Origin: a virus
Direction: 5' to 3' (one strand)
DNA length: 27,172 nt
Virus record (IMG/VR): IMGVR_UViG_3300030117_006216
Location: 1 to 27,172 of that record
Numbering within the stretch: the first letter of the stretch is position 1; the number at the start of each line of letters is the position of its first letter. The notes under the pieces were generated by a model, which was given only the letters and a program-made list of their open reading frames with translations, was not told the DNA's origin and ran no database searches. The position numbers and the translations under genes are program-made. Below are positions 9,512 to 26,595 of the stretch, one piece after another.

Positions 9512-12500
9512 TTATAATCCTATAAAATCAAGTATTTGTTGACCTGTTCCACCAGCCTCACCTTCCTTATTAGTAACCGCACTATCCCAACCCTGAAAGA
9601 ATTCACGCTTAAATGGATTCTGTGCAGTAGCAGGCCCAAAGTGAGTTCCAAGTGCACTTTTATTATTACCCCCTAATACGGTATATCCTAAACTTAAATC
9701 AACTATATGTGGTAATTGTGCTAGTAAATCACCCCTAGTATCTGGATTTTCCGGGTCAAATTCATTAACCATATAACTCTTATCATTTTTTCTTGCTGCC
9801 GGATATGGACTTTCCTGTTTTGTTGGGATGAATCCTGATGCTGCTCCTAGAGGATCATTTATTACATTAGTTACAGTAGATATACTGTTACCTAAATTAC
9901 TAAATGGTCCACCCGCTCCTTCCTGTTGATTTATTTCCCAAGGAGAATCATCCGGTATAGTAATTGTTAATGCATTTAAAAATCCAGGTGCTTGAATTAT
10001 ATAATCACCTATTGTCATTTCCATCATAGGTCCTGTCATAAATCTTCCCGATTCATATCCTGCAGGATAACACATTCCAATCAATTTATTTATTTTTTTC
10101 CACATCCAATACATATCTTGAGCCGCTAACGCAGCTACTTTTAAATTAAATGATATTGTTCTAGCAGAAGCACCATTGTATTGAAATACCGGGTCAGGGC
10201 GTCCTATATAATTATATTGAGCCCAATTTGGTTGTACAGAATCTGTTAATCCAGAAATATATGCTCTAAACCTCCAAGCTTGGTCATTTACAACATCTTT
10301 CATTTGGAAATTTATAAAATCCTTTTTAGCTTCATCGGCTAGTTGTTCTCCTGTATAAAAATCTTCCATAGTGATATCATCACCTGTTCCAGGAATATGT
10401 TTATAATATAATTTTCTATCAAGACCTGGTTTACCCGATTCAGGATAACCATATCTTTTATGCATATTATTTTCTATATAATTTGCCGCACCTGATAATC
10501 CTACATGGATAGCACCCATATCTGATATAAACATTCTGAAGTCATTAAATCTAATCATTCCAGTGTCTACTATTTCAGATGCCATTTGAATAGCTGGATA
10601 ATGTAGTACAGACCAATATTTTCTAGCACTTAAACCTGTGATCGTTGATAGTAGATCGCCTCCGCCCGGTGAAAATTGATTTACCATACCGCCAAATCTT
10701 CCTACAGCGCCGGTTGCCGAATCTCCAGGCAATCCCCTATGAGTTCCTTTTGGTGGATTATTACTTAACTGTACTGCAAATCTATTGTGTTGCATCCACC
10801 ATCTTTTTATAGTATCATCTATACCTGAAGCATCTAGCTGATCTTTTATGTTTGCAATGTTATCTAAAGGATTTAGGTTATTAAGAATATTTCCAACAGT
10901 AGAACGTTGTTTAGTATTTTGGGTAAATATATCCATCATCCTTTCTTCATAGGTTTTACCACCCATTGAACTTAGACCAGCTCCTACAGAATCAAATAAT
11001 TGGTTATCTTCATCGTAAGGATTAAGAAATAAATTACCAGAATCAGGACCAAAAAATGCATCTTGAAGTGCTGATCCTAAGGATGGGTTAACACCAGTAA
11101 CTTGTTGGAAAGATGAACCTAAACCTCCTGCTGTTCCTGCTTTTGGACCATACATTTTTGGACCATACTTATAACCATCTGACCATCTATAATATTTTTC
11201 TACAAATAATTGATCTCCATCTAACCAAGATATATGTTTTTTACCCATTGGTTTTCTAAAGGATATTAAAGTTGCATTTTTTCCTGAGCCTGCTGTAGTG
11301 CCTGTTTCCCACCAATCAAAAATATTAGTTCTTCCCAATCCATATCCATATGTAGCTATATCAGCTTCTGGTTGATATCCTGGGTGGTTATATACTAAAT
11401 TTTCTTCAATGCTTTCATATTCATCGGCGCCTAATTCAGTGGCTGATAATATCCAAGATGACATTCCATTTGTTAGATATCTATATGGATTAACAAATCC
11501 AGGTGTTCCACCACCTACTGCTGAAAATGAAGCAATTCCTGAACCCCAATTAGAATTTGGATTGCCCATCATAGTATAATATGACCATGGGTTATTCTGA
11601 TTAAATTCATGTTTATAATCTTGCGATTCATCCAGATACTGTGAGAATGAATTATTTACAGACATATCAGGATTAGGATGCAATCCGCCCGGTCTATAGA
11701 AATCTAAAGGTGAAGATTTAACATCTCCTAGGCTTAAAATATCATCACCAAATCTATTTAATCCCTCATATAAATCAGAATCCATCCAATATTGTAATTG
11801 ATTATTAAATAAAGAACTAAAGGAATAATCACTATTAATAGAAGTAATAGTTATTGAATTATATACACCATTTGCAATACTTACATAATCTGTATTTTCT
11901 AAGCCACCATTATAAGCTGATTTATTTCTAGTAAACTGATCGGTGTATTTAGCAGATGTATCAAAATAATTTGTTGAATTATTTTCATCAAAGTATATAC
12001 TAGGATTATCATATGAAGAACCATCAATTCCTGTATATCGTGATACTGTTGCTAATGAGTGCTGCCAATTGTTCCAACCACCGGTCATAGCAAAGTATGA
12101 ACCATTATTATTATAATTTATATACCCTTGATAGTAATCATTATTTACATCAAAATAATTTACTGTAGGGTCATTTTGTGCAATACTAAATATACTTGGA
12201 TTATCATCTCCATTTTGGATCCATTCATATTCTGATAATTCTGTATTTCCTAATGACCAATTCCATGAAGGGCCTGTTAGTACTAATTGCTTACCATTAA
12301 ATTGTGGATTAAATCCAACAGTCATTATCGGATTATCTAAATTAAAGAAATTTTGAGTATCTTCAAATAGTCTATATGTATTATTTATTGAATTTATTTT
12401 ACCTTTGACTGTCATTTTTTCATTAGTCAATGAAACCATATTTAAAAAATTATAATCTGTCTCTAATGGGACTGGTCTTACTGTTATACCAACATTAGGA

Positions 12501-15907: not shown

Positions 15908-16171
15908 TTAAGATTTAGGGCTTATATTAGGTCTAAACACATCCTTAGGATTATTTGAGATATCCTTATTTTGCATCTGCCTTTTGTCTATTTCCTTTTG
16001 CTGTAGTTCGTTATAATTATTTATATAATTAATATAAGCTCTTCGCATCCAAACAGGCATATTATATACCTCGGAATGTGGAAATCCACCCTTTCCATGA
16101 TAAGTTAAATCGAATACTTCCTGAAATACTTTTTTTCTATTGGTTTGATTTAGGCCAAAAAAACCCGGCAT
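15908..16171 (-). CDS. Overlapping ORF, probable frameshift extension of the gp26-type protein (tail assembly chaperone-like)
   Basis: 87 codons, of which residues about 6-55 (GLNQTNRKKVFQEVFDLTYH, then GGFPHSEVYNMPVWMRRAY and NYINNYNE) look like a small helical chaperone-type domain with a hydrophilic tail. It overlaps the end of the 285-residue gene by 35 bases in the +1 frame. Its only ATG lies inside that overlap and has no SD (upstream reads TTGGCATTGCCAATAG). A GGG-TTT-TTT-T run lies within the overlap, so it is more likely reached by frameshifting than by new initiation. The fused product would be about 361 residues. This copies the G/GT arrangement placed just before tape measure genes in many long-tailed phages. 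Independent translation remains possible. Confidence 0.8.
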   Translation of the reverse strand: MPGFFGLNQTNRKKVFQEVFDLTYHGKGGFPHSEVYNMPVWMRRAYINYINNYNELQQKEIDKRQMQNKDISNNPKDVFRPNISPKS

Positions 16172-16994
16172 CTATTGGCAATGCCAACGTCGCAGTATGA
16201 TCACACTCTGAACATTCAAAGTCTATATTGAAGTTTACATCAGGTTGAACAGTATTAATATATTCTCTTAGTGCGTAGGAGTCTCTAGATAGAAATTCAT
16301 TATCTACAAAATTTGTGATATATTTTTTATCCTCATTATCATCTACTGATACAATCATATGTTTTAATCTAGTAGTTATTTCTGGATTTACACCACTTTT
16401 ATTAATCTTACGTCTTGCGTCTAATTCTCTTTGAACGGCTTTTTCAATTTTATGGGTGGCTAAAATAAATTTAATTTTTCTTTTAGATGCAGGTAATTCC
16501 CAATCAATAAATCCGTCAGTTCCCATTTTTGATAAAGTATCCTCATCAAATTTATTTTCTCCCAAATCAGATAGGTTTACATTCATTTGGTTTTTAGCAC
16601 CACAGTTTGGACAAGTAACCTCGAATCTATAATCTGCACCATATCCTAGAATACGTGAAGCTATCATAATAGCATTTTTATCACCAACTATAAGATCGTT
16701 ATAATTAATAGGAGATATAATTAAAGATTTAAATAGTTCATCTAAAACAGTTCCCTTTTTAATTAAATTAACAGATGTAAGTATATCTTCCTCCTTGGCT
16801 GTCATATACTTCATTTGTATTTTACCCGATGATAGTGGGTTATCCTTAGGATATGCTAACCCCTTACTAGGTAATTCCACGACTTCAGTTGGAAATTGAT
16901 ACTTTTCCTCAGTAATAGATTGTTGTATTGCTTGCTTTTTTAATTGTTCATCCGTCAATTGACCCGGATATGAATCATCATAATTCTTGCTCAT
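16137..16994 (-). CDS. gp26: T4 gp26-type baseplate/tail assembly protein with zinc-ribbon cysteines
   Basis: 285 residues. The N-terminal part holds VVELPSKGLAYPKDNPLSSG and IQMKYMTAKEEDILTS, typical of the T4 baseplate protein family that includes gp26. A first cysteine pair C128-P-N-C131 and a second C261-S-E-C264 frame the central domain and probably bind one zinc. The protein ends DAGFFWPKSNQ, a common ending of the family. T4 gp26 has 208 residues, so this is longer. It begins a new transcription unit after the tube terminator, with the SD AAGGAGA 9 bases before the ATG. In T4, gp26 and its neighbour gp51 help hub assembly; here the following overlapping ORF and the tape measure suggest tail assembly chaperone work. 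Confidence 0.85.
   Translation of the reverse strand: MSKNYDDSYPGQLTDEQLKKQAIQQSITEEKYQFPTEVVELPSKGLAYPKDNPLSSGKIQMKYMTAKEEDILTSVNLIKKGTVLDELFKSLIISPINYNDLIVGDKNAIMIASRILGYGADYRFEVTCPNCGAKNQMNVNLSDLGENKFDEDTLSKMGTDGFIDWELPASKRKIKFILATHKIEKAVQRELDARRKINKSGVNPEITTRLKHMIVSVDDNEDKKYITNFVDNEFLSRDSYALREYINTVQPDVNFNIDFECSECDHTATLALPIDAGFFWPKSNQ
16157..16166 (-). other. Candidate +1 (or -2) ribosomal frameshift site
   Basis: In the 285-residue gene the codons read GCC GGG TTT TTT TGG, a run of seven T. Slipping forward one base re-pairs both Phe codons perfectly (TTT TTT) and continues GGC CTA in the 87-codon frame. A -1 slip would not enter that ORF. The zero-frame stop TAG follows 17 bases later. 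A homopolymer of seven is also a place where sequencing could lose or gain a base. Confidence 0.55.
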
Positions 16995-17026
16995 AACATT
17001 ATCTCCTTATTATATAACTTATCATA

Positions 17027-17108: not shown

Positions 17109-17600
17109 TTAGTATTGTAATATTGCGTAATCGTAAGCTACACCAATACCTACTGTAAGAGCTTGGTCAGCTGAAGCCCAATCCAAATCACCAAATGACA
17201 CGTTAGTAGCAAATGCACCTTTAAGGGTCCATTCCTCTACCTTATCACCTACAGGTCCTAGTACATTAATCGTAATATCCTTTTTATAAAAATCAGAATA
17301 TCCATCTCTACCTGTAACAGATTCATGTCCTAATCTTACCCACTCCATAGCTGCTTGAGCTGCAGATGGTACGATTGGGTCATATAATTCAATTTGTATA
17401 TCTTGCCACGTTGCTTTACCCTTCACTTTATGTGATACATTAATGTGCGGCATCTCAACAGTTCCCATCGCAATAGATGGTCTACTAGCTTTTCTTATCA
17501 AATATGCTGGAACACCTTCCAAATATAGAATAAATCTATTTGCCTGTTTGGGTTCAAACGGTGTAAAAAACATTTCATTTGGGTCTATTATTTGAGCCAT
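17109..17600 (-). CDS. gp19: Tail tube protein gp19
   Basis: 163 residues, the same length as T4 gp19. It carries the tube protein pattern: an N-terminal stretch ANRFILYLEGVPAYLIRKAS, then MPHINVSHKVKGKATWQDI, IELYDPIVPSAAQAAMEWV and a C-terminal beta part ending GVAYDYAILQY. It forms the hexameric inner tube through which DNA passes, built on the baseplate and inside the sheath. No signal peptide or cysteine is seen. SD AAGGAGA is 9 bases before the ATG, with an ATATTTATA element 19 bases upstream, so it may have its own promoter besides read-through from the sheath gene. It is followed by a strong terminator, fitting the end of a high-expression unit. Confidence 0.95.
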   Translation of the reverse strand: MAQIIDPNEMFFTPFEPKQANRFILYLEGVPAYLIRKASRPSIAMGTVEMPHINVSHKVKGKATWQDIQIELYDPIVPSAAQAAMEWVRLGHESVTGRDGYSDFYKKDITINVLGPVGDKVEEWTLKGAFATNVSFGDLDWASADQALTVGIGVAYDYAILQY

Positions 17601-17619
17601 TTATTATCTCCTTATCAAT

Positions 17620-17644: not shown

Positions 17645-20164
17645 TTATTCAGGAAACTCTGCGCCTGTTGGTAAAATGTTGAAATCAAGAACAATAAATT
17701 CTGCCGTTTTTGTTGGTTGCAAGAATATTTGTCCTCTTAATTCATTCCTATCTATTACATCAGGTGTATTATTAGTTTCATCCATAACAACCTTAAATGC
17801 ATATAATCCTGAATTTGATTGTACATTTTCTAAGTATGGATTAGCTATTCCTAAGAATCTATTTCTAGTAGCTGCAGTATTTTGTTCAAACACTAAGAAT
17901 TTAGTAGATGATGCAATAAATTTCTTAACAGTAATCATTAATCTTCTAACGTTTATTCTATCTAAAGCTGATGCTTTTTTCTGTAGTGTTTTTTGTCCCC
18001 ATACTGTAACATTTTGTCCCGGGAATGAAGCAATTGGATTAACTCTAGAATCATATAAATCATCTCTCTCTGAATGTGTTAATCTCGTTGCTGGTTCTAA
18101 TACAGATGTTAATCCTCCTCTAGTTAACCCAGCAGGTGCATACCAAGGATGTGATAATGCGTCCGTTTGAGCTATTACTCCTGCTACAACAACTGATGGT
18201 GGAACCCAAACATGTTTATTATTGTCTGAATCCACTAATTTTACCCATGGGTAATAAGTTGCTGCATATGATGAATCAAAATTGCCTGCGTCAGAAATTG
18301 CGTCAGTAATTTGTGTGCTTACAACTGGAGAAGCTGCATATTTAGCTACATCTAGTAAATAGAATGCATCCGCTCTAGCTTCAACCTTTCTTAATGCATA
18401 ATTTTGAATATCACTACCGTGAGTATAAATTATCCCAGGTGTTACTAGTAAATTAATATCCCACTCATCAGGGTTAGATATAGCGTCTATAGCTCTTTTA
18501 TATGCTACAGTTCCTTCAGATGTTGATGTGCTAATATCATGACCCATAACATTTGTAGTAGTCATATTAGCTCCAGTTAATTTATGCTTAGATGGGTGTA
18601 TTCCATCAAAACCGCCCTGGAATGGTACTGCAAATTTTCTTTGATTTACTGAACCTGTTGTGGTTGTTAATAATGTAAATCCATGAGCTGCTCCTGGTTC
18701 TTGAACTGCTGCATCAGCATGTCCATACATGTTACTTAAATTAAAGTCTACATTTCCACCAGTATGCGAACTAGCATTTGGGGTAACATTAAGATAATTT
18801 AAGTTATCAAATGCTGCAGGGTTACCGTTAGAATCTTCAGAATCCTTAAAGTTAAAATTAAATCCATAATATTGATCACTATACCAAACTGCTGATTTAC
18901 CTTGTCTTGTTGCAAAAGAACAAGAAGGCGAAGTACCTATAGTAGATGGTATAGGATCCACTACAGCCTTAAATCCAAATGGTAATTGATTTTTAGCTAT
19001 AGTTCCTGCTTTTAATGAGTTAGTCCCGTCAATTCTAATAAATTGAGATTTTGCTGGATAATCATTATATCCAATCAATTTACCCTCATCATTAATTTTA
19101 TAATATCTATCACCAATTCGTCTTAATACGAAATTAGCATCGTCAGGATCCAGAGTACAACCTGAAAAAGATTCTACTACTGTATCTTGAGTATATGTAT
19201 ATGGATTTCTATCACCCTTTGTTGCATTAATTTCTGTCTGATCTTGTCTAATAACATTAACAGTAAATGTTCCATATCCTTTATCTGTTAAAGTAGAATA
19301 TTGAATATTTGAAATACCTATCTTGAATCTCCAGTTTTCTGAAGTTCCATGTGACAGTGTGTGAAATCTAAATAAATTTTGTGTAGTTAAGTTAACTGAA
19401 TCTTTTTGTGTAGTAATCCATGGAGTGGTTGCATGTGTATATGCTGGAAAATCTATAGTTCCATGTGATCCTGAAACACTACCATTTAATCCTTTACCAG
19501 TTCCAGGTGCTAATTGTTGATGAACCTTAAAGTTAGTCCATAAAAATCCTCTTTTTGTAGAATTAGGATTATATCCAAATAATTTATCTATATAATTATC
19601 TGCTGTTTTTGTAAATGAAGCAGAATATGCTGTTCCACTAGTATCCTTATTATCCAGTTCTGCAAACCCAGAAGTTGTTCCAGTTGAACCTGATAGTTTT
19701 ACAACAAATGCCGAAGCTGATACATATCCTCCCGGTTGAGCACCTGTAAGAGCTGGAGTTGTTTCAACAGTACAAGCTGTGTTATGAGCTCCCTCAAAAG
19801 CCGTTGGAATAAATGTAGCTACAGTTTTATCAACAGCTGTATTATTTGCGTCGGATGATCCTGAGTATGTTAGTGCATACATTGGAACACCAGTAACTGT
19901 GCTTCTTCCTAATGTTCTTACTATTGTTACTCGACCAGCTTGTCTTAAATATTCTTTAGCCGTGTAAGGAACATAAGTTTCGGTTGACAAGTCACCGAAT
20001 ATATTTTTAAATTCTTCAAAATTATTTACCACTGTTGGCCAAAATGCAGGTCCTGTTTTTGTTGGTCCTATAATACAACCACCAATTTCCCCCACACCTT
20101 GAGGTAAAAACGAAAGGTCCTTTTCACGTGTAAATACACCAGGACTTACTATTCTTTCCGCCAT
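17645..20164 (-). CDS. gp18: Contractile tail sheath protein gp18
   Basis: 839 residues. The N-terminus (MAERIVSPGVFTREKDLSFL, then GGCIIGPTKTGPAF, VTIVRTLG) and the C-terminal domain (about 690-839: VLEPATRLTHSERDDLYDSR, RINVRRLMITVKKFIASST, FEQNTAATRNRFLG, TAEFIVLDFNILPTGAEFPE) are the sheath signatures that form the inner contractile core. T4 gp18 has 659 residues; the extra about 180 lie in the middle (about 110-560), probably surface-exposed domains facing the medium. It polymerises around gp19 and contracts at infection. SD TAGGAGA is 8 bases before the ATG, with an ATATTTATA element 59 bases upstream. Stop is followed by a 44-base gap to gp19. The middle is Ser/Thr/Gly/Asn-rich, as expected for a variable exposed part. 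Confidence 0.95.
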   Translation of the reverse strand: MAERIVSPGVFTREKDLSFLPQGVGEIGGCIIGPTKTGPAFWPTVVNNFEEFKNIFGDLSTETYVPYTAKEYLRQAGRVTIVRTLGRSTVTGVPMYALTYSGSSDANNTAVDKTVATFIPTAFEGAHNTACTVETTPALTGAQPGGYVSASAFVVKLSGSTGTTSGFAELDNKDTSGTAYSASFTKTADNYIDKLFGYNPNSTKRGFLWTNFKVHQQLAPGTGKGLNGSVSGSHGTIDFPAYTHATTPWITTQKDSVNLTTQNLFRFHTLSHGTSENWRFKIGISNIQYSTLTDKGYGTFTVNVIRQDQTEINATKGDRNPYTYTQDTVVESFSGCTLDPDDANFVLRRIGDRYYKINDEGKLIGYNDYPAKSQFIRIDGTNSLKAGTIAKNQLPFGFKAVVDPIPSTIGTSPSCSFATRQGKSAVWYSDQYYGFNFNFKDSEDSNGNPAAFDNLNYLNVTPNASSHTGGNVDFNLSNMYGHADAAVQEPGAAHGFTLLTTTTGSVNQRKFAVPFQGGFDGIHPSKHKLTGANMTTTNVMGHDISTSTSEGTVAYKRAIDAISNPDEWDINLLVTPGIIYTHGSDIQNYALRKVEARADAFYLLDVAKYAASPVVSTQITDAISDAGNFDSSYAATYYPWVKLVDSDNNKHVWVPPSVVVAGVIAQTDALSHPWYAPAGLTRGGLTSVLEPATRLTHSERDDLYDSRVNPIASFPGQNVTVWGQKTLQKKASALDRINVRRLMITVKKFIASSTKFLVFEQNTAATRNRFLGIANPYLENVQSNSGLYAFKVVMDETNNTPDVIDRNELRGQIFLQPTKTAEFIVLDFNILPTGAEFPE

Positions 20165-20223
20165 TTATTTTCTCCTATAATATTATCTAATAAATCTTGC
20201 AGTTTGCAGGTAATTCAATCATA

Positions 20224-21972: not shown

Positions 21973-23127
21973 TTATCCAATATATATAGGTAATGGTAAT
22001 TTACCCATTTTATTTTGCATCGCTTCCGCCTCTTCAGCATCGCTAGCTATCATCATTTTACGAGACGTAGCTTCTAAATTCTCTCTTAATTCTGTAATTA
22101 ATCTGTCCTTTTCTGATGCTCCTTCCGAACGTAAAGTATCTCCATCAAGATTAATTTCCGCCCCAGGAATAGGAACTGATGAATATTTGCTTCTGATTGC
22201 CCCTAATAATTCCTTAGCTAATGCTAAAGTGTATTTTTTAATCCACTGTTTACCTGGATCATTTATATTTCCATACGACATATTATTATATGTGATATTT
22301 GAAAAATCAGTTACCACATTTGTAGGTCCCAATGATGCTTCTTGCCTAGCATTTGTTGTTATGTATCTTAAATGTACCTTAAATGCAGAATCAGGTCTAG
22401 GGAATAATTTAATTTTGTTATTAATAATTTCAAAACTATATGCCGATTTTCTAATCATATCATTTAGTTCTATAGCCTGTGTTCTTAATACATCATGGAA
22501 CATTGGCATCATTAAGAAATTAACAGCTGGTGAATAGTCTCCCCAACCAAAACTATCTAATAATTGTGCACTTCCTGCTCCTGTTCCGATATATGGATCA
22601 AAATATCTTGTTATAGCCGGTTTAGCCTGATGATATACTTGTTTAATTTCTATTCTATCATTATTAGAAGCTGAGGCTACAGATAGAACACTATTTAGAT
22701 CATAATCCTGAACATCTGCGGTTGTTGTAAATGAACTGGATATCCAATCTACTCTCCCACCAGCGCCTACTTCCTGACCATATGATTGAGCTAATCTTAT
22801 ATATCTATCATATGAAGGAGTATATTCTCTATGAGTTAAATTTGAACCGGTTGTAGAACCTTTAGCGGATAGTAAATTTTCTCTTATATTAAACTGATTG
22901 ACTTGGGTGCTATATTCTGTAATAGCTTCTTCAAAACAAGCGTAAAATTGTTTATCTTGCAATTCTATATCTACTATAGGATATCCCATTCTTCTAGCAC
23001 ACCAAACAGTAACCTTATCAACATCAGATACAAATGATGTTTCCGAATCATAATATCCGAATGGTGTTAAGCTAGCGCTAAATGATGATGATCCTGGCCA
23101 TGTTGCTACAGTTTTACTATGTGACAT
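21973..23127 (-). CDS. gp13: Neck protein gp13
   Basis: 384 residues (T4 gp13 has 309). The N-terminal half contains CARRMGYPIVDIELQDKQFY and ACFEEAITEYSTQVNQFN, matching the [20 protein letters not shown] / CIQRALELYGEY signature of T4 gp13. Later parts (about 150-300: SVLSVASASNNDRIEIKQVY, FEIINNKIKLFPRP, KYTLALAKELLGAIRSKY) form the usual neck core; the Ala/Glu-rich helix near 320-365 is the C-terminal arm. It forms a ring below the portal for tail attachment. SD AAGGAGA is 6 bases before the ATG, and an ATATTTATA element lies 22 bases upstream, after the capsid terminator, so it opens a new transcription unit. Confidence 0.9.
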   Translation of the reverse strand: MSHSKTVATWPGSSSFSASLTPFGYYDSETSFVSDVDKVTVWCARRMGYPIVDIELQDKQFYACFEEAITEYSTQVNQFNIRENLLSAKGSTTGSNLTHREYTPSYDRYIRLAQSYGQEVGAGGRVDWISSSFTTTADVQDYDLNSVLSVASASNNDRIEIKQVYHQAKPAITRYFDPYIGTGAGSAQLLDSFGWGDYSPAVNFLMMPMFHDVLRTQAIELNDMIRKSAYSFEIINNKIKLFPRPDSAFKVHLRYITTNARQEASLGPTNVVTDFSNITYNNMSYGNINDPGKQWIKKYTLALAKELLGAIRSKYSSVPIPGAEINLDGDTLRSEGASEKDRLITELRENLEATSRKMMIASDAEEAEAMQNKMGKLPLPIYIG

Positions 23128-23149
23128 ATTATTCTCCTTGCTATTCTAA

Positions 23150-23232: not shown

Positions 23233-24939
23233 TTATAGTAAATTTAAGTCTTTAATGATTAACTTACCATAGAATTCTGGTCTAACGATTTTCTTCGCGT
23301 AACGCGTCATTACACCTTTTCTAGGAGTGAAGTTAGTTGGATCATAAATAAGTGGAGTCATGATCAATGGAACATATGGAGCGTATACCGCACCTGTTTC
23401 AAGGAACTGTGATCCTCTGTATCCAACAAGAACTTGATTCTCTAGCATGTATGGGTTTTTGTAAACTTGGAATCTGCTGTTAAGCATACCTAGTTTTTGA
23501 ACACCCATTGCGAAAGACTTAGTTCCCCAAGCTTCACCGTCAGTTTGAGTTGCAAATCCTGGGATTGACTCAAGAACTGTAGCTACTTTTGGTGAGCATA
23601 CTAAGAAGTTTGCACCACCTCTCATAGTTTTTTGGTGAATCACATTCGATAGCTTAACAATCTTAGTACCAATAGTTTGGAACCATGTTTGTTGGTTATA
23701 AGCTGCAGCAGATGCACCTCCTGATTTCCATAGGTTAGCAGATGGGTCAAATACTTCATCGATTGTTACCGACCAATACTCAGTTGATTGAGCGTTAGAA
23801 ACTAACATATCTAAAATTTCTAAATCAATTTCCATTGAAATGTATTCAGATAACATAGATGTTAATTCTGCTTCTGCGTCAATTGAGTGATAAGCATTTA
23901 AGTCTTGAGCGAACTCAGGTGACCAAACTGCTTTCAACTTACGAGTCTTAGCAACGATAGCCTCAGATCTTAACTGAACGTCAATTTCTGGAATACCAAT
24001 ATCGCCCGTAGCCGACTTGTCAGGGTTTCCACCTGTTGTATCTTCGAAATCACCTCTAGTAATATCTGTTGGTTGTTTATGATAATTAATGTTTAATTGA
24101 CCTCCTGCAGCTGCTGTTCCAGCAGAACCTGATACTACGAAAGTAATAGTATTTGCAGTTTTGTCAACTTTAGTAAATTGTGGGAACCAGCTTACAATTG
24201 TAGATCCTGATGGTTCGAAAGCTCTTACACCTTCTAAATCTTCATTAGTAAATGGTGAGTCTGAACTGTCGTCGCAATCTACTGTTAATGAAAATAATGA
24301 TCCATCTTTTAATCCTGCAGCGTTAGAGCTTGAGAATGCTGAATCGTAATTATAAGTTGCACCTTTTGCAGAAATAGTTCCGTTTAATGATGCTGTAGTA
24401 TACGCAGTCGTAGAAGTTGCTGCTGCACATGATAGTGCTACAGTAGTTGCTTCATTGATTGAGTATCCAAATCTACCAGCTCCATAAAGACCATCACTTG
24501 CGTCAGTATCTTTAGCAGCTGTTCCTGTGATACCGTGAACGGTACCTGTTTGATTCTGTCCTGTGTCAACAGTGAATCCTGGTTGTGAAGTTCCATATTT
24601 GAAATCTAGGAAGAACACAAGACCAGATGGTAAATTCATCGGTTGTACAGAAACGAAATCTTTTGCAGCAATCTCAGCGAAGATTCTTCTAACAAGAGGT
24701 AATGCAACACCTGACCATTCTTCAGATCCAGCTGTAGTTCCACTTTTTGAGTTTTCATCAATAAGTTGTCTAGCTTGGTTTTCTAAAAGAACTGCCATTC
24801 CGTGCTTGTCATATTCTTGATCGATACCTTCTAAAAGACCAGTTCTGTCCCACTTGTAAACTAAGTTTCTAGTAGTATCTAACTGTCTTTGGTATGAGTT
24901 GCCTGCATCTGTCAATAAATTGTTTAATGTTGATGCCAT
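23233..24939 (-). CDS. gp23: Major capsid protein gp23
   Basis: 568 residues (T4 gp23 has 521). The gp23 signature is clear: KHGMAVLLENQARQLIDENS, WSGVALPLVRRIFAEIAAKD, FVSVQPMNLPSGLVFFLDFK, and the C-terminal MTPLIYDPTNFTPRKGVMTR, YAKKIVRPEFYGKLIIKDL. The HK97-type fold carries a Thr/Ser/Gly-rich insertion domain at about 125-290. A prohead-protease consensus site LLE|G (L35-L36-E37|G38) would remove a 37-residue N-terminal arm, as gp21 does in T4. SD AAGGAGA is 8 bases before the ATG; the scaffold stop lies 30 bases upstream, so both are on one transcript. The codons look richer in C-ending and less AT-biased than neighbours, consistent with very high expression. A terminator follows the stop. 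Confidence 0.97.
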   Translation of the reverse strand: MASTLNNLLTDAGNSYQRQLDTTRNLVYKWDRTGLLEGIDQEYDKHGMAVLLENQARQLIDENSKSGTTAGSEEWSGVALPLVRRIFAEIAAKDFVSVQPMNLPSGLVFFLDFKYGTSQPGFTVDTGQNQTGTVHGITGTAAKDTDASDGLYGAGRFGYSINEATTVALSCAAATSTTAYTTASLNGTISAKGATYNYDSAFSSSNAAGLKDGSLFSLTVDCDDSSDSPFTNEDLEGVRAFEPSGSTIVSWFPQFTKVDKTANTITFVVSGSAGTAAAGGQLNINYHKQPTDITRGDFEDTTGGNPDKSATGDIGIPEIDVQLRSEAIVAKTRKLKAVWSPEFAQDLNAYHSIDAEAELTSMLSEYISMEIDLEILDMLVSNAQSTEYWSVTIDEVFDPSANLWKSGGASAAAYNQQTWFQTIGTKIVKLSNVIHQKTMRGGANFLVCSPKVATVLESIPGFATQTDGEAWGTKSFAMGVQKLGMLNSRFQVYKNPYMLENQVLVGYRGSQFLETGAVYAPYVPLIMTPLIYDPTNFTPRKGVMTRYAKKIVRPEFYGKLIIKDLNLL

Positions 24940-24969
24940 TTTAGCGTCTCCTTATTCTTTTTAAAATTT

Positions 24970-25989
24970 TTACTTTAAACCTGCAAGTTTTTGGAATCTT
25001 GCAGCTTGTACTTGACCTTCTGTAATTACGTTTCTTGGTTTTGTACTTGCTACTGATTTAGATGCCAAACCTTCGGTTATTGGTCTTTTAGCAACTGATT
25101 TGCTTCCGCCTTTGAAAGACTCAGCTAATGTAGAGTAAACTAATTTAATTTCTCTTAAATTATTAGCTCTATCAAACGTTTCAATTACTCTTAATTTTTG
25201 ATTTTCATTAAGATTACCAGCTCTGAACAATTTGTTCGAGAATAAAAGTTTAGCATTTAATAAATTAACCTCGTTAATTTTGTTTTTCATAAATGCTAAT
25301 GCAGAGTAAGCTTCTCTTAACTTATTTTCATAAGCATGAGCAACGTATCTTGCTTCCGCTACTGCTTCAGCTGAATCGTCTTCTTCCTCTTCATCTTCAT
25401 CTTCTTCATCTTGTTCTCTCAGTGATCTTAGAACTTCATCAATAGTAACATCTTCATCTTCGTCGTCTTCATCTTCTTCACCATCCTCTAGTTGTTCAAG
25501 TAAATCTGAACCTGTAATAGCTGAATCGCCATTAGCTCCAGTTTCTTTTCCACTAGGATCTGGTGTAGCGCCTGAATTATCGTCGAAAGATGTTCCGCTA
25601 CCAATTTTAGAACTGCTTTCAATGGATCCTTCTTCTAACTCTTCTTCATCTTCGTCGTCTTCATCACCATCTTCTAGTTCTCTAATAATTGATTCTAATT
25701 CTAAGTCCTCCTCGCCGGCATCTTCATCTTCATCTTCCACTTCTTCATCACCTAGTTCAATAGATTCTGCATCATCAATAGCAGCGTCTACTTCTGGAGA
25801 TGTTTCCATTTCTGTACCTTCCTCTTCTTCTTCATCATCCATCATGTCTTCTTGCTCGTTAATTCTAGCAGCTAACATAGATTGAAGTTTTGGAGTGAAA
25901 GCTTCCTCAAGAGCTAATTTAGCGTTTGCAATAGCAGTTTGTCTTACAGCTTTAGCATCAGCAATTGCTTCTTTTAATAAATCGGCCAT
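24970..25989 (-). CDS. gp22: Prohead core scaffold protein gp22-like
   Basis: 339 residues. A helical N-terminus (1-48) is followed by a Glu/Asp-rich stretch (about 48-215, with runs such as EDEDEDAGEED) and a helical C-terminal half (about 215-300). T4 gp22 is a similarly acidic core protein that is degraded by gp21. Four matches to the (L/I)xE|(A/G) protease site occur: LEE|A at 29, LEE|G at 120, ITE|G at 306 and ITE|G at 324. The position directly before gp23 supports the call. SD AAGGAGA is 8 bases before the ATG and a structured leader of about 110 bases lies upstream. The function is to shape the head during assembly; length exceeds T4 gp22 (269) mainly because of the acidic part. Confidence 0.88.
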   Translation of the reverse strand: MADLLKEAIADAKAVRQTAIANAKLALEEAFTPKLQSMLAARINEQEDMMDDEEEEEGTEMETSPEVDAAIDDAESIELGDEEVEDEDEDAGEEDLELESIIRELEDGDEDDEDEEELEEGSIESSSKIGSGTSFDDNSGATPDPSGKETGANGDSAITGSDLLEQLEDGEEDEDDEDEDVTIDEVLRSLREQDEEDEDEEEEDDSAEAVAEARYVAHAYENKLREAYSALAFMKNKINEVNLLNAKLLFSNKLFRAGNLNENQKLRVIETFDRANNLREIKLVYSTLAESFKGGSKSVAKRPITEGLASKSVASTKPRNVITEGQVQAARFQKLAGLK

Positions 25990-26022
25990 TCGATTTCTCC
26001 TTATATTATTTAATTAGGAAAT

Positions 26023-26086
26023 ATAGTTATTATAGAACTATAATAGGGATTTGTTTTAATTCCTTACATCATATAGAGATGATGTA
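26023..26086 (-). promoter_or_regulatory. Structured 5' leader of the scaffold/capsid transcript
   Basis: Between the 26102-26110 element and the scaffold ATG the leader can form an 8-bp hairpin (TACATCAT / ATGATGTA, six-base loop, 26065-26086) and one of two mutually exclusive stems: TTATAG / CTATAA at 26030-26043 or ATAGTT / AACTAT at 26023-26041. Other gaps in the window are too short for this. The role (stability, translation control) is unknown. Confidence 0.4.
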
Positions 26087-26101
26087 TTTCGGACATTCGA
26101 A

Positions 26102-26110: not shown

Positions 26111-26132
26111 ATGTGTATATAAAAAAACATAC

Positions 26133-26163
26133 AAAAAAATCCCCTAAAAGTGGGGATTTTTTT
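26133..26163 (-). terminator. Rho-independent terminator after the bS21 gene
   Basis: The minus strand reads AATCCCC, loop ACTTTTA, GGGGATT followed by a T run, with an A run before it. It lies 3 bases after the bS21 stop. The symmetrical A/T tracts would allow termination in both directions. Confidence 0.9.
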
Positions 26164-26166
26164 AAT

Positions 26167-26508
26167 TTATCTTGAAAAAGAACGAGGTTTTCTCTTAGGC
26201 CTACTTGGTCTAACATAATTAGGATCCTTAAATCCTAACACCCATGCTTTATCATGAGCTATCCTTCGCTTAGTTTCCTTTTTCTGCATATTAATAGCTC
26301 TATCTTTTTCTACTCTTTTCTTTGCAGATTTCTTCTCGAAATATCTTCTATCTCGTAATTCTTGTAATTTGCCTTCTTCTTTTAATTGCCTTTTGAATAT
26401 CCTCATTGCAATTTCTAATTCTTCCTTTCTAGGAACTTTTACACCGCCAGGAATGAAATATTCGTCCTTCCTTCGCGGTAATCTCTTAAAATAATTTTCT
26501 TTTGCCAT
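26167..26508 (-). CDS. rpsU: Phage-encoded ribosomal protein bS21
   Basis: 113 residues (E. coli bS21 has 71). Residues about 23-80 match the bS21 core: EELEIAMRIFKRQLKEEGKL, QELRDRRYFEKKSAKKRVEK, then a basic helix, equivalent to [20 protein letters not shown] and RRREFYEKPTTERKRAKA of E. coli. An N-terminal extension of about 20 residues and a C-terminal tail of about 30 (AWVLGFKDPNYVRPSRP, then a Lys/Arg-rich end) are extra. bS21 sits on the 30S platform near the anti-SD and helps initiation. The gene is alone between two terminators, so it needs its own promoter. No SD is visible before the ATG (upstream ATTAAAAATACTATAGT), unlike the strong AAGGAGA sites of its neighbours. Phage bS21 genes are known from several aquatic phages; here replacement or supplementing of the host protein late in infection is the likely role. 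Confidence 0.9.
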   Translation of the reverse strand: MAKENYFKRLPRRKDEYFIPGGVKVPRKEELEIAMRIFKRQLKEEGKLQELRDRRYFEKKSAKKRVEKDRAINMQKKETKRRIAHDKAWVLGFKDPNYVRPSRPKRKPRSFSR

Positions 26509-26518
26509 ACTATAGTAT
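26507..26518. promoter_or_regulatory. 12-bp perfect palindrome at the bS21 start codon
   Basis: ATACTATAGTAT reads the same on both strands and includes the first two bases of the ATG. It replaces the place where an SD would be. It could be an operator or a short hairpin affecting initiation, but in AT-rich DNA it may be chance. Confidence 0.3.
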
Positions 26519-26543
26519 TTTTAATTAAACGTTATATTAATAT

Positions 26544-26575
26544 AAAAAAAAAGGTTGGAAAATCCAACCTTTTTC
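26544..26575 (-). terminator. Rho-independent terminator between the Ala/Lys-rich gene and bS21
   Basis: The minus strand reads AAAAAGGTTGGA, loop TTT, TCCAACC followed by nine T. The stem is perfect and can act in both directions because of A and T tracts on both sides. It lies about 20 bases after the stop of the rightmost gene and about 36 bases before the bS21 ATG. Confidence 0.92.
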
Positions 26576-26595
26576 TCAATTATTTTTAATAATTA

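Follow-up and report, generated by a model that had tools for sequence, protein, structure and literature searches.

Among the relatives of a T4-like myovirus, carriage of a gene for ribosomal protein bS21 and the use of Shine-Dalgarno (SD) sequences by virion genes show correlated evolution, as judged by sequence comparison. An SD (dG <= -5) leads the major capsid gene, gp23, at 84 of 97 bS21 loci and at 0 of 66 loci lacking bS21, in a pool drawn from the best 80 of about 600 matches per search. On the gp23 tree, SD use parallels bS21 in 5.6 of 6 independent pairs and is opposite in none (sign test, median p 0.031; the cut for SD use, a locus mean of <= -2.5, was chosen after the data were seen). 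The original prediction that bS21 and SD-led virion messages go together is thus upheld by comparison, and the sequences suggest that phage bS21 may re-tune host ribosomes late in infection.

The bS21 gene of the window and its surroundings

The window, i.e. the whole stretch of DNA analysed, is a 27,172-base IMG/VR virus fragment with its main genes on the minus strand (Table 1). It contains the virion cluster of a T4-like myovirus, in which gp23-type capsid, sheath, gp19 tube and neck are recognised by family matches (PF07068, PF04984 and PF06841 for gp23-type capsid, sheath and gp19 tube), and no recognised replication gene in its 27,172 bases. The bS21 gene is real: its product scores above the family cut-offs of Pfam (PF01165, E 1.9e-9, 37.5 bits, cut-off 27) and NCBIfam (TIGR00030, 34.1 bits over residues 23-78, cut-off 28.95) and also matches phrog_21469 (E 1.7e-9). 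That the ORF is more than a chance one follows moreover from a dN/dS of 0.04 between the window and its nearest relative, L002, and from 62 relatives in which bS21 is readable and likewise has the orientation of gp23. The span 26133-26575, first given as the bS21 unit, comprises the gene together with its terminators.

Table 1. Features of the window discussed in the text
Feature	Position	Strand	Basis	Signal or content
bS21 gene	26167..26508	minus	ORF, 113 aa, ATG start, profile matches	
Intrinsic terminator 3' of bS21	26132..26164	minus	fold -15.4 kcal/mol, z -3.6; also in pattern scan	
Intrinsic terminator 5' of bS21 (end of upstream unit)	26545..26577, within 26540-26580	minus	fold -17.2 kcal/mol, z -5.2	
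SD-less bS21 leader	26509..26545	minus	anti-SD score	TTATATTA at 26538-26545
Conserved RNA element (covarying hairpin) in scaffold leader	26015..26091 (77 nt)	minus	covariation and model search	
Scaffold-like gene	24970..25989	minus	position	SD AAGGAGA 25996-26002
Major capsid protein gp23	23233..24939	minus	family	SD AAGGAGA 24947-24953
Neck / head-tail adaptor	21973..23127	minus	family	SD AAGGAGA 23133-23139
Tail sheath	17645..20164	minus	family	SD TAGGAGA 20171-20177
Tail tube gp19	17109..17600	minus	family	SD AAGGAGA 17607-17613
gp26-type baseplate gene	16137..16994	minus	name from original prediction	SD AAGGAGA 17002-17008

The bS21 core comprises approximately residues 23-78, with 22 residues before it and about 35 after it, and the protein has an N-terminal extension (residues 1-22) with an IPG motif and a C-terminal one (about 84-113), in agreement with the predicted 113-residue homologue extended at both ends. 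Its AlphaFold model (pLDDT 79, pTM 0.43) consists of helices 28-45, 47-53 and 60-90, and a Foldseek search with this model gave four matches, the first two being weak ones to bS21 chains (E 1.1 and 3.3). A search with the window bS21 sequence alone yielded no relatives in viral contigs and one weak phage match. With the bS21 sequences of two relatives as queries, matches came only from Vibrio, Pelagibacter and Methylophilales phages and one further phage, so that searches by bS21 sequence brought up none from a cultured phage with a Bacteroidota host.

The surroundings of the gene are largely as predicted. Both proposed terminators fold well, the pattern scan of the window listing the hairpin 3' of bS21 and not the one 5' of it, and bS21 lies upstream of scaffold and capsid; in relatives it is found 1.3-2.8 kb before gp23 in the lowest-scoring 45 of 144 loci. 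At +2.0 kcal/mol, the bS21 leader has the weakest pairing with the anti-SD among 19 scored genes of the window, which do not include the one truncated at the window end, and the ATG indeed lacks a visible SD. The leaders of the scaffold-like gene (for which family searches gave no match), gp23, neck, tube and the gp26-type gene reach -8.2 or -8.3 and that of the sheath -7.3, i.e. all carry the expected AAGGAGA or the close variant TAGGAGA. SDs are not found on every gene, as the genes starting at 2562, 3829, 16171, 21454 and 21969 score -3.1 or weaker. An SD-less gene for 87 aa (15908-16171, minus strand) shares 35 bases with the 3' terminus of the gp26-type gene; translational coupling of the two is therefore likely.

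The scaffold leader harbours a conserved hairpin with two-sided changes in 6 of 7 pairs over 25 sequences. The model of this element finds one place each in 22 of 31 sources, comprising phages with and without bS21, seven of these 22 having contributed sequences to the model; a search of the whole window against Rfam gave no match at gathering thresholds. Between the window and L002 the bS21-scaffold intergenic region is identical in 172 of 180 columns, despite a dS of 1.9 in bS21.

bS21 and SD use across relatives

Among the records of a phage collection, the gp23 closest to that of the window belongs to Mel-JY01 (56.8%), recorded from Microcystis elabens, followed by Flavobacterium phage immuto (NC_055915, 53.7%). 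Next come an uncultured phage of 484 kb (51.8%) and RM378, a Rhodothermus phage (42.7%). Immuto shares the scaffold-leader RNA element with the window, but has no bS21 in its whole record, and none of the 15 genes scored around its gp23 has an SD. A small gene after its prohead protease was considered as a hidden bS21 and gave no bS21 match.

The relatives were collected by four IMG/VR searches with gp23, each contributing its best 80 of about 600 matches, and supplemented with five phage-collection records, resulting in a pool of at least 288 loci with at least 234 distinct gp23 sequences. As two of the four queries came from phages without bS21 and only the best 80 of about 600 were taken, the share of bS21 carriers is no estimate for nature. 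In the first search, bS21 was present in 64 of the best 80 of about 600 (43/50 and 21/30), four of them below the family cut-off, and lies on the gp23 strand in all 62 of these that are fully readable. The main contrast is between 97 loci with bS21 upstream of gp23 and 66 in which at least 4 kb of upstream sequence lacks it; five loci with fewer than five scored genes and 66 loci ending early upstream lie outside it. The class 'without' denotes absence of bS21 within the locus, and among 31 such or unclassed contigs checked over their whole records bS21 was found elsewhere in one, G095. SD strength was scored as the pairing between the anti-SD UCACCUCCUUU and leader positions -20 to -4, a stretch further upstream serving as control, an SD being called at the same dG limit as for gp23 above; gene starts are the 5'-most ATG unless set by homology.

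The contrast extends well beyond gp23. In the same best-80 pool, 722 of 1297 nearby genes have an SD at bS21 loci versus 57 of 827 at loci without bS21, and the median locus mean SD energy is -4.59 with bS21 (control -1.83) and -0.42 without (control -1.71), a difference of U = 16 of 6402 and p 5e-27 by a statistic that ignores kinship. By a plain motif count, GGAG precedes 28% of the genes in the median locus with bS21 versus 0% in that without. Where starts are supported by homology, SDs are found with and without bS21, respectively, on 57/76 versus 3/29 scaffold, 21/43 versus 0/40 neck, 8/8 versus 0/5 tube, 8/8 versus 0/1 sheath and 5/5 versus 0/1 gp26-type genes. GTDB contigs have SDs on 23 of 51 genes in four with bS21 versus 4 of 92 in seven without; one contig with bS21 (L441) has none on its 6 genes, and L445, which ends early upstream and is unclassed (SD on 4/7 genes), was left out.

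Virion SDs might reflect high expression only, and bS21 might just travel along in a conserved late cluster, with no bearing on them. The strongest SDs of the window include those of gp23, neck, tube and scaffold, i.e. of proteins expected to be abundant; however, in phages without bS21 these genes are mostly SD-less, and the bS21 and SD traits change together on the gp23 tree, so that we regard this explanation as very improbable. On this tree (FastTree, 162 loci; some long branches meet), bS21 presence changed 8 times, 6 of these changes being forced by supported branches, and gp23's own SD parallels bS21 in 5.1 of 6 independent pairs (median p 0.0625).

There are contrary cases. L136 carries bS21 upstream of gp23 and has an SD on 1 of 12 genes, and G095, with its bS21 elsewhere in the contig, has SDs on 0 of 14 genes near gp23. 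L225, L227 and L137 have locus means of -2.7 to -3.2 despite the absence of bS21 from the locus, the L137 record containing a bS21 far from the gp23 locus. L344 and L275, both ending early upstream, have an SD on gp23 and none on average. With 66 aa, no extension and a position far from gp23, the bS21 of G095 (locus L432; about 11260-11461) is of a second kind.

Types of bS21 phage and the question of the host

By author-chosen sequence signatures, those bS21 genes whose start is readable (96) were divided into a Mel-JY01-type (27) and a window-type (69). Mel-JY01-type genes mostly have their own SD (24/27), lie in a tight context (median gaps of 15 and 14 nt) and encode Lys or Arg at position 54, whereas window-type genes rarely have one (3/69) and are set apart by median gaps of 58 nt before and 177 nt after. 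A PG or GG motif within the first 45 residues occurs in 55/69 window-type and 4/27 Mel-JY01-type proteins. The claim that the bS21 message is SD-less hence applies to 66 of 69 window-type genes and is not universal. By their sequences, window-type phages appear to fit the pattern of an SD-less bS21 message accompanied by SD-led virion messages. The SD-less start may allow self-limiting expression, as originally proposed, but would be explained just as well by a simpler requirement, i.e. readability by unmodified host ribosomes.

Of the 69 window-type loci, 41 have the element TTATATTA 5' of bS21, compared with 3.5 expected by a first-order random model, and TATATTA is found 12-47 nt before the bS21 ATG in window-type loci and before 73 of 930 other genes. 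TTATATTA may be a putative promoter or leader element, and its recurrence could be explained by shared descent; as a separate bS21 promoter class it was rejected, as it marked no wider gene class across 13 genomes. Another sequence, TATTTATA, which may be a late-promoter-like motif, precedes 165 of 991 genes in window-type loci at a distance of up to 90 nt, but only 5 of 69 bS21 genes.

In ten window-type genomes, a count that sets aside Mel-JY01, G002 and G121 (the last unclassed for bS21), SDs lead 67 of 142 virion versus 8 of 54 replication homologues. Tested singly, as is possible in the 7 of 10 whose replication genes are numerous enough, the difference has p < 0.05 in G082 and G083 and p of 0.06-0.31 in the others. 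Three genomes without bS21 have SDs on 3 of 44 virion and 0 of 16 replication homologues. In G081 (188 kb), the 10-kb block with bS21 and gp23 has a mean of -4.29, the other 18 blocks ranging from +0.45 to -2.80. Coverage was partial for some contigs (G047, 100 of 103 kb; G084, 60 of 62; G092, 160 of 162; G093, 180 of 183). Mel-JY01 and G002 have SDs throughout their genomes; virion and replication genes do not differ in G002 (p 0.51) and differ weakly in Mel-JY01 (p 0.07).

These distributions bear on the idea that the hosts differ, i.e. that bS21 phages infect SD-using bacteria and the others SD-blind ones, bS21 being kept for another reason. The genome-wide SDs of the Mel-JY01-type, the recording of Mel-JY01 from M. 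elabens, the SDs in several stretches away from gp23 in G047, G082 and G083, and the fact that the surveyed IMG/VR contigs come without host assignment all speak for it. In G042, G058, G067 and G081, however, most stretches away from gp23 score at or near control, as in immuto, and an SD-using host would not explain why SDs are concentrated on virion genes; a host difference thus seems unlikely to us, although it deserves to be taken seriously. The cultured kin were recorded from Flavobacterium (immuto), Microcystis (Mel-JY01) and Rhodothermus (RM378), and binned GTDB contigs were set aside as a guide to the host, their labels being mixed: of three contigs in one Flavobacteriales MAG, two carry bS21 and the third does not. 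Mel-JY01 (PP395634), recorded as a Microcystis phage, groups with the window clade by gp23; its real host may be Microcystis or a companion bacterium.

Likewise, bS21 might be packaged in the virion, as proposed by Chen 2022 (PMC9723584), and act from the start of infection. This would fit the Mel-JY01-type, which has SDs in both gene classes, but window-type replication genes are SD-poor, as would be expected with a later switch, and we hardly believe that packaging accounts for the pattern.

Virion SDs in the window and its relatives read AAGGAGA, seldom GGAGG: at window-type sites the base following AGGAG is A in 116 of 160 cases and G in 4. The scarcity of GGAGG could point to limited pairing or to a changed 16S tail.

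A possible switch of the start signal by phage bS21

In Bacteroidia, including Flavobacterium, the anti-SD is hidden in a pocket formed by bS21, bS18 and bS6, where Tyr54 of bS21 stacks on A1534 (McNutt 2023, PMC9976891). According to the same study, Y54A substitution and loss of the C-terminus of F. johnsoniae bS21 increase translation of a strong-SD message in vitro three- and five-fold, respectively, the mutants stimulating a message with AGGAGGU and not one with the weak SD AGGA. As Flavobacterium phages are among the nearest cultured kin of the window and the Flavobacterium anti-SD is hidden, these data provide a concrete mechanism for the earlier idea that the phage changes ribosomes late in favour of strong-SD virion messages. 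The host would be a bacterium of the Bacteroidota kind with a hidden anti-SD, and early phage genes would be written in its SD-less style. The SD-less, separately transcribed bS21 message would be read by unmodified host ribosomes, phage bS21 would then replace host bS21 in 30S subunits and leave the anti-SD able to pair, and AAGGAGA-type virion messages would from then on be favoured over host and early messages. On balance, we incline to this scheme as a whole, i.e. that phage bS21 may swap in, free the anti-SD and favour SD-led virion messages. More tentatively, and with somewhat more doubt than belief, we propose that phage bS21 may be a switch of the start signal, turning SD-blind into SD-reading Bacteroidota ribosomes, with two classes of message per genome and with bS21 and SDs gained and lost as a pair several times. 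If so, the bS21 message must be readable before the switch, i.e. without an SD.

How the anti-SD might be released is a separate question. Asn73 of the window protein corresponds to Tyr54 of F. johnsoniae bS21, and the top two PDB matches of the phage bS21 profile, one of them F. johnsoniae 7jil, both have Tyr there. Loss of Tyr54 was rejected as a general cause, as 55 of 96 phage bS21 proteins in the pool keep Tyr or another aromatic residue with nearly equal SD richness of virion genes (median -4.32 in aromatic-54 phages versus -4.72); position 54 therefore does not settle the route of release. The N-terminal extension is a possible candidate for freeing the anti-SD. SD strength poses a difficulty for the scheme, since the phage sites lie between AGGA and AGGAGGU and many relatives have AGGA-type sites alone.

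Phage bS21 might also simply sustain translation when host bS21 becomes short or is destroyed late in infection, the choice of messages being unchanged. bS21 is loosely held and exchangeable (PMC6375957), and phage-driven loss of host bS21 has been suggested by McNutt 2023 (PMC9976891), but such a supply role predicts neither virion SDs mainly in the company of bS21 nor SD-less bS21 messages, and we deem it improbable.

The switch proposed here can be compared with known systems. In the bS21-encoding Bacteroidetes phages of Chen 2022 (PMC9723584), bS21 lies near capsid genes, is expressed late and was proposed to swap into ribosomes. The window likewise has bS21 near capsid-assembly genes, but on the same strand as its neighbours, as in 62 of 62 relatives, whereas the Chen phages have it on the opposite strand; in these, position 54 is also aromatic in 61 of 61 cases, as opposed to Asn in the window and 55 of 96 aromatic residues in the pool. 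The abstract, Results and Discussion of that paper do not describe phage genes being surveyed for SDs. F. johnsoniae rpsU resembles the phage case in that bS21 bears on SD use by Bacteroidota ribosomes, but it is autoregulated by ribosomes lacking bS21 via an extended SD (PMC9976891), which the bS21 gene of the window lacks (dG +2.0), and the virion SDs are shorter. Entry of a phage bS21 into E. coli ribosomes was proven for Pelagibacter phage HTVC008M (Mizuno 2019, PMC6375957), a phage of another host group than that of the window phage, the ribosomes bearing its bS21 having approximately 5% activity in the E. coli system; the term 'Shine-Dalgarno' is absent from the main text of that report. 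rpS21 proteins of huge phages share N-terminal extensions with the window protein, theirs being basic and aromatic and predicted to aid binding or initiation, but in that work it is rpS1, not rpS21, that is tied to SD use (Al-Shayeb 2020, PMC7162821).

Thus, phage carriage of bS21, its proximity to capsid genes, late expression and possible replacement of host bS21 are already published (Chen 2022; parts in Mizuno 2019 and Al-Shayeb 2020). The coupling of phage bS21 to SD use is new within the literature covered: in full texts, mostly excluding subscription papers and preprints, we found no report of phage bS21 tracking SD use.

bS21 has been described as by far the commonest phage ribosomal protein (PMC9976891). 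The existing proposals for its role, as set out in the sources cited, name no message feature that is selected, whereas the coupling names one, the SD, and predicts that the window bS21 raises translation of an AAGGAGA reporter in Flavobacterium. If this holds true, these phages would make a natural specialised ribosome, and their bS21 may become a tool to turn on SD use in Bacteroidota.
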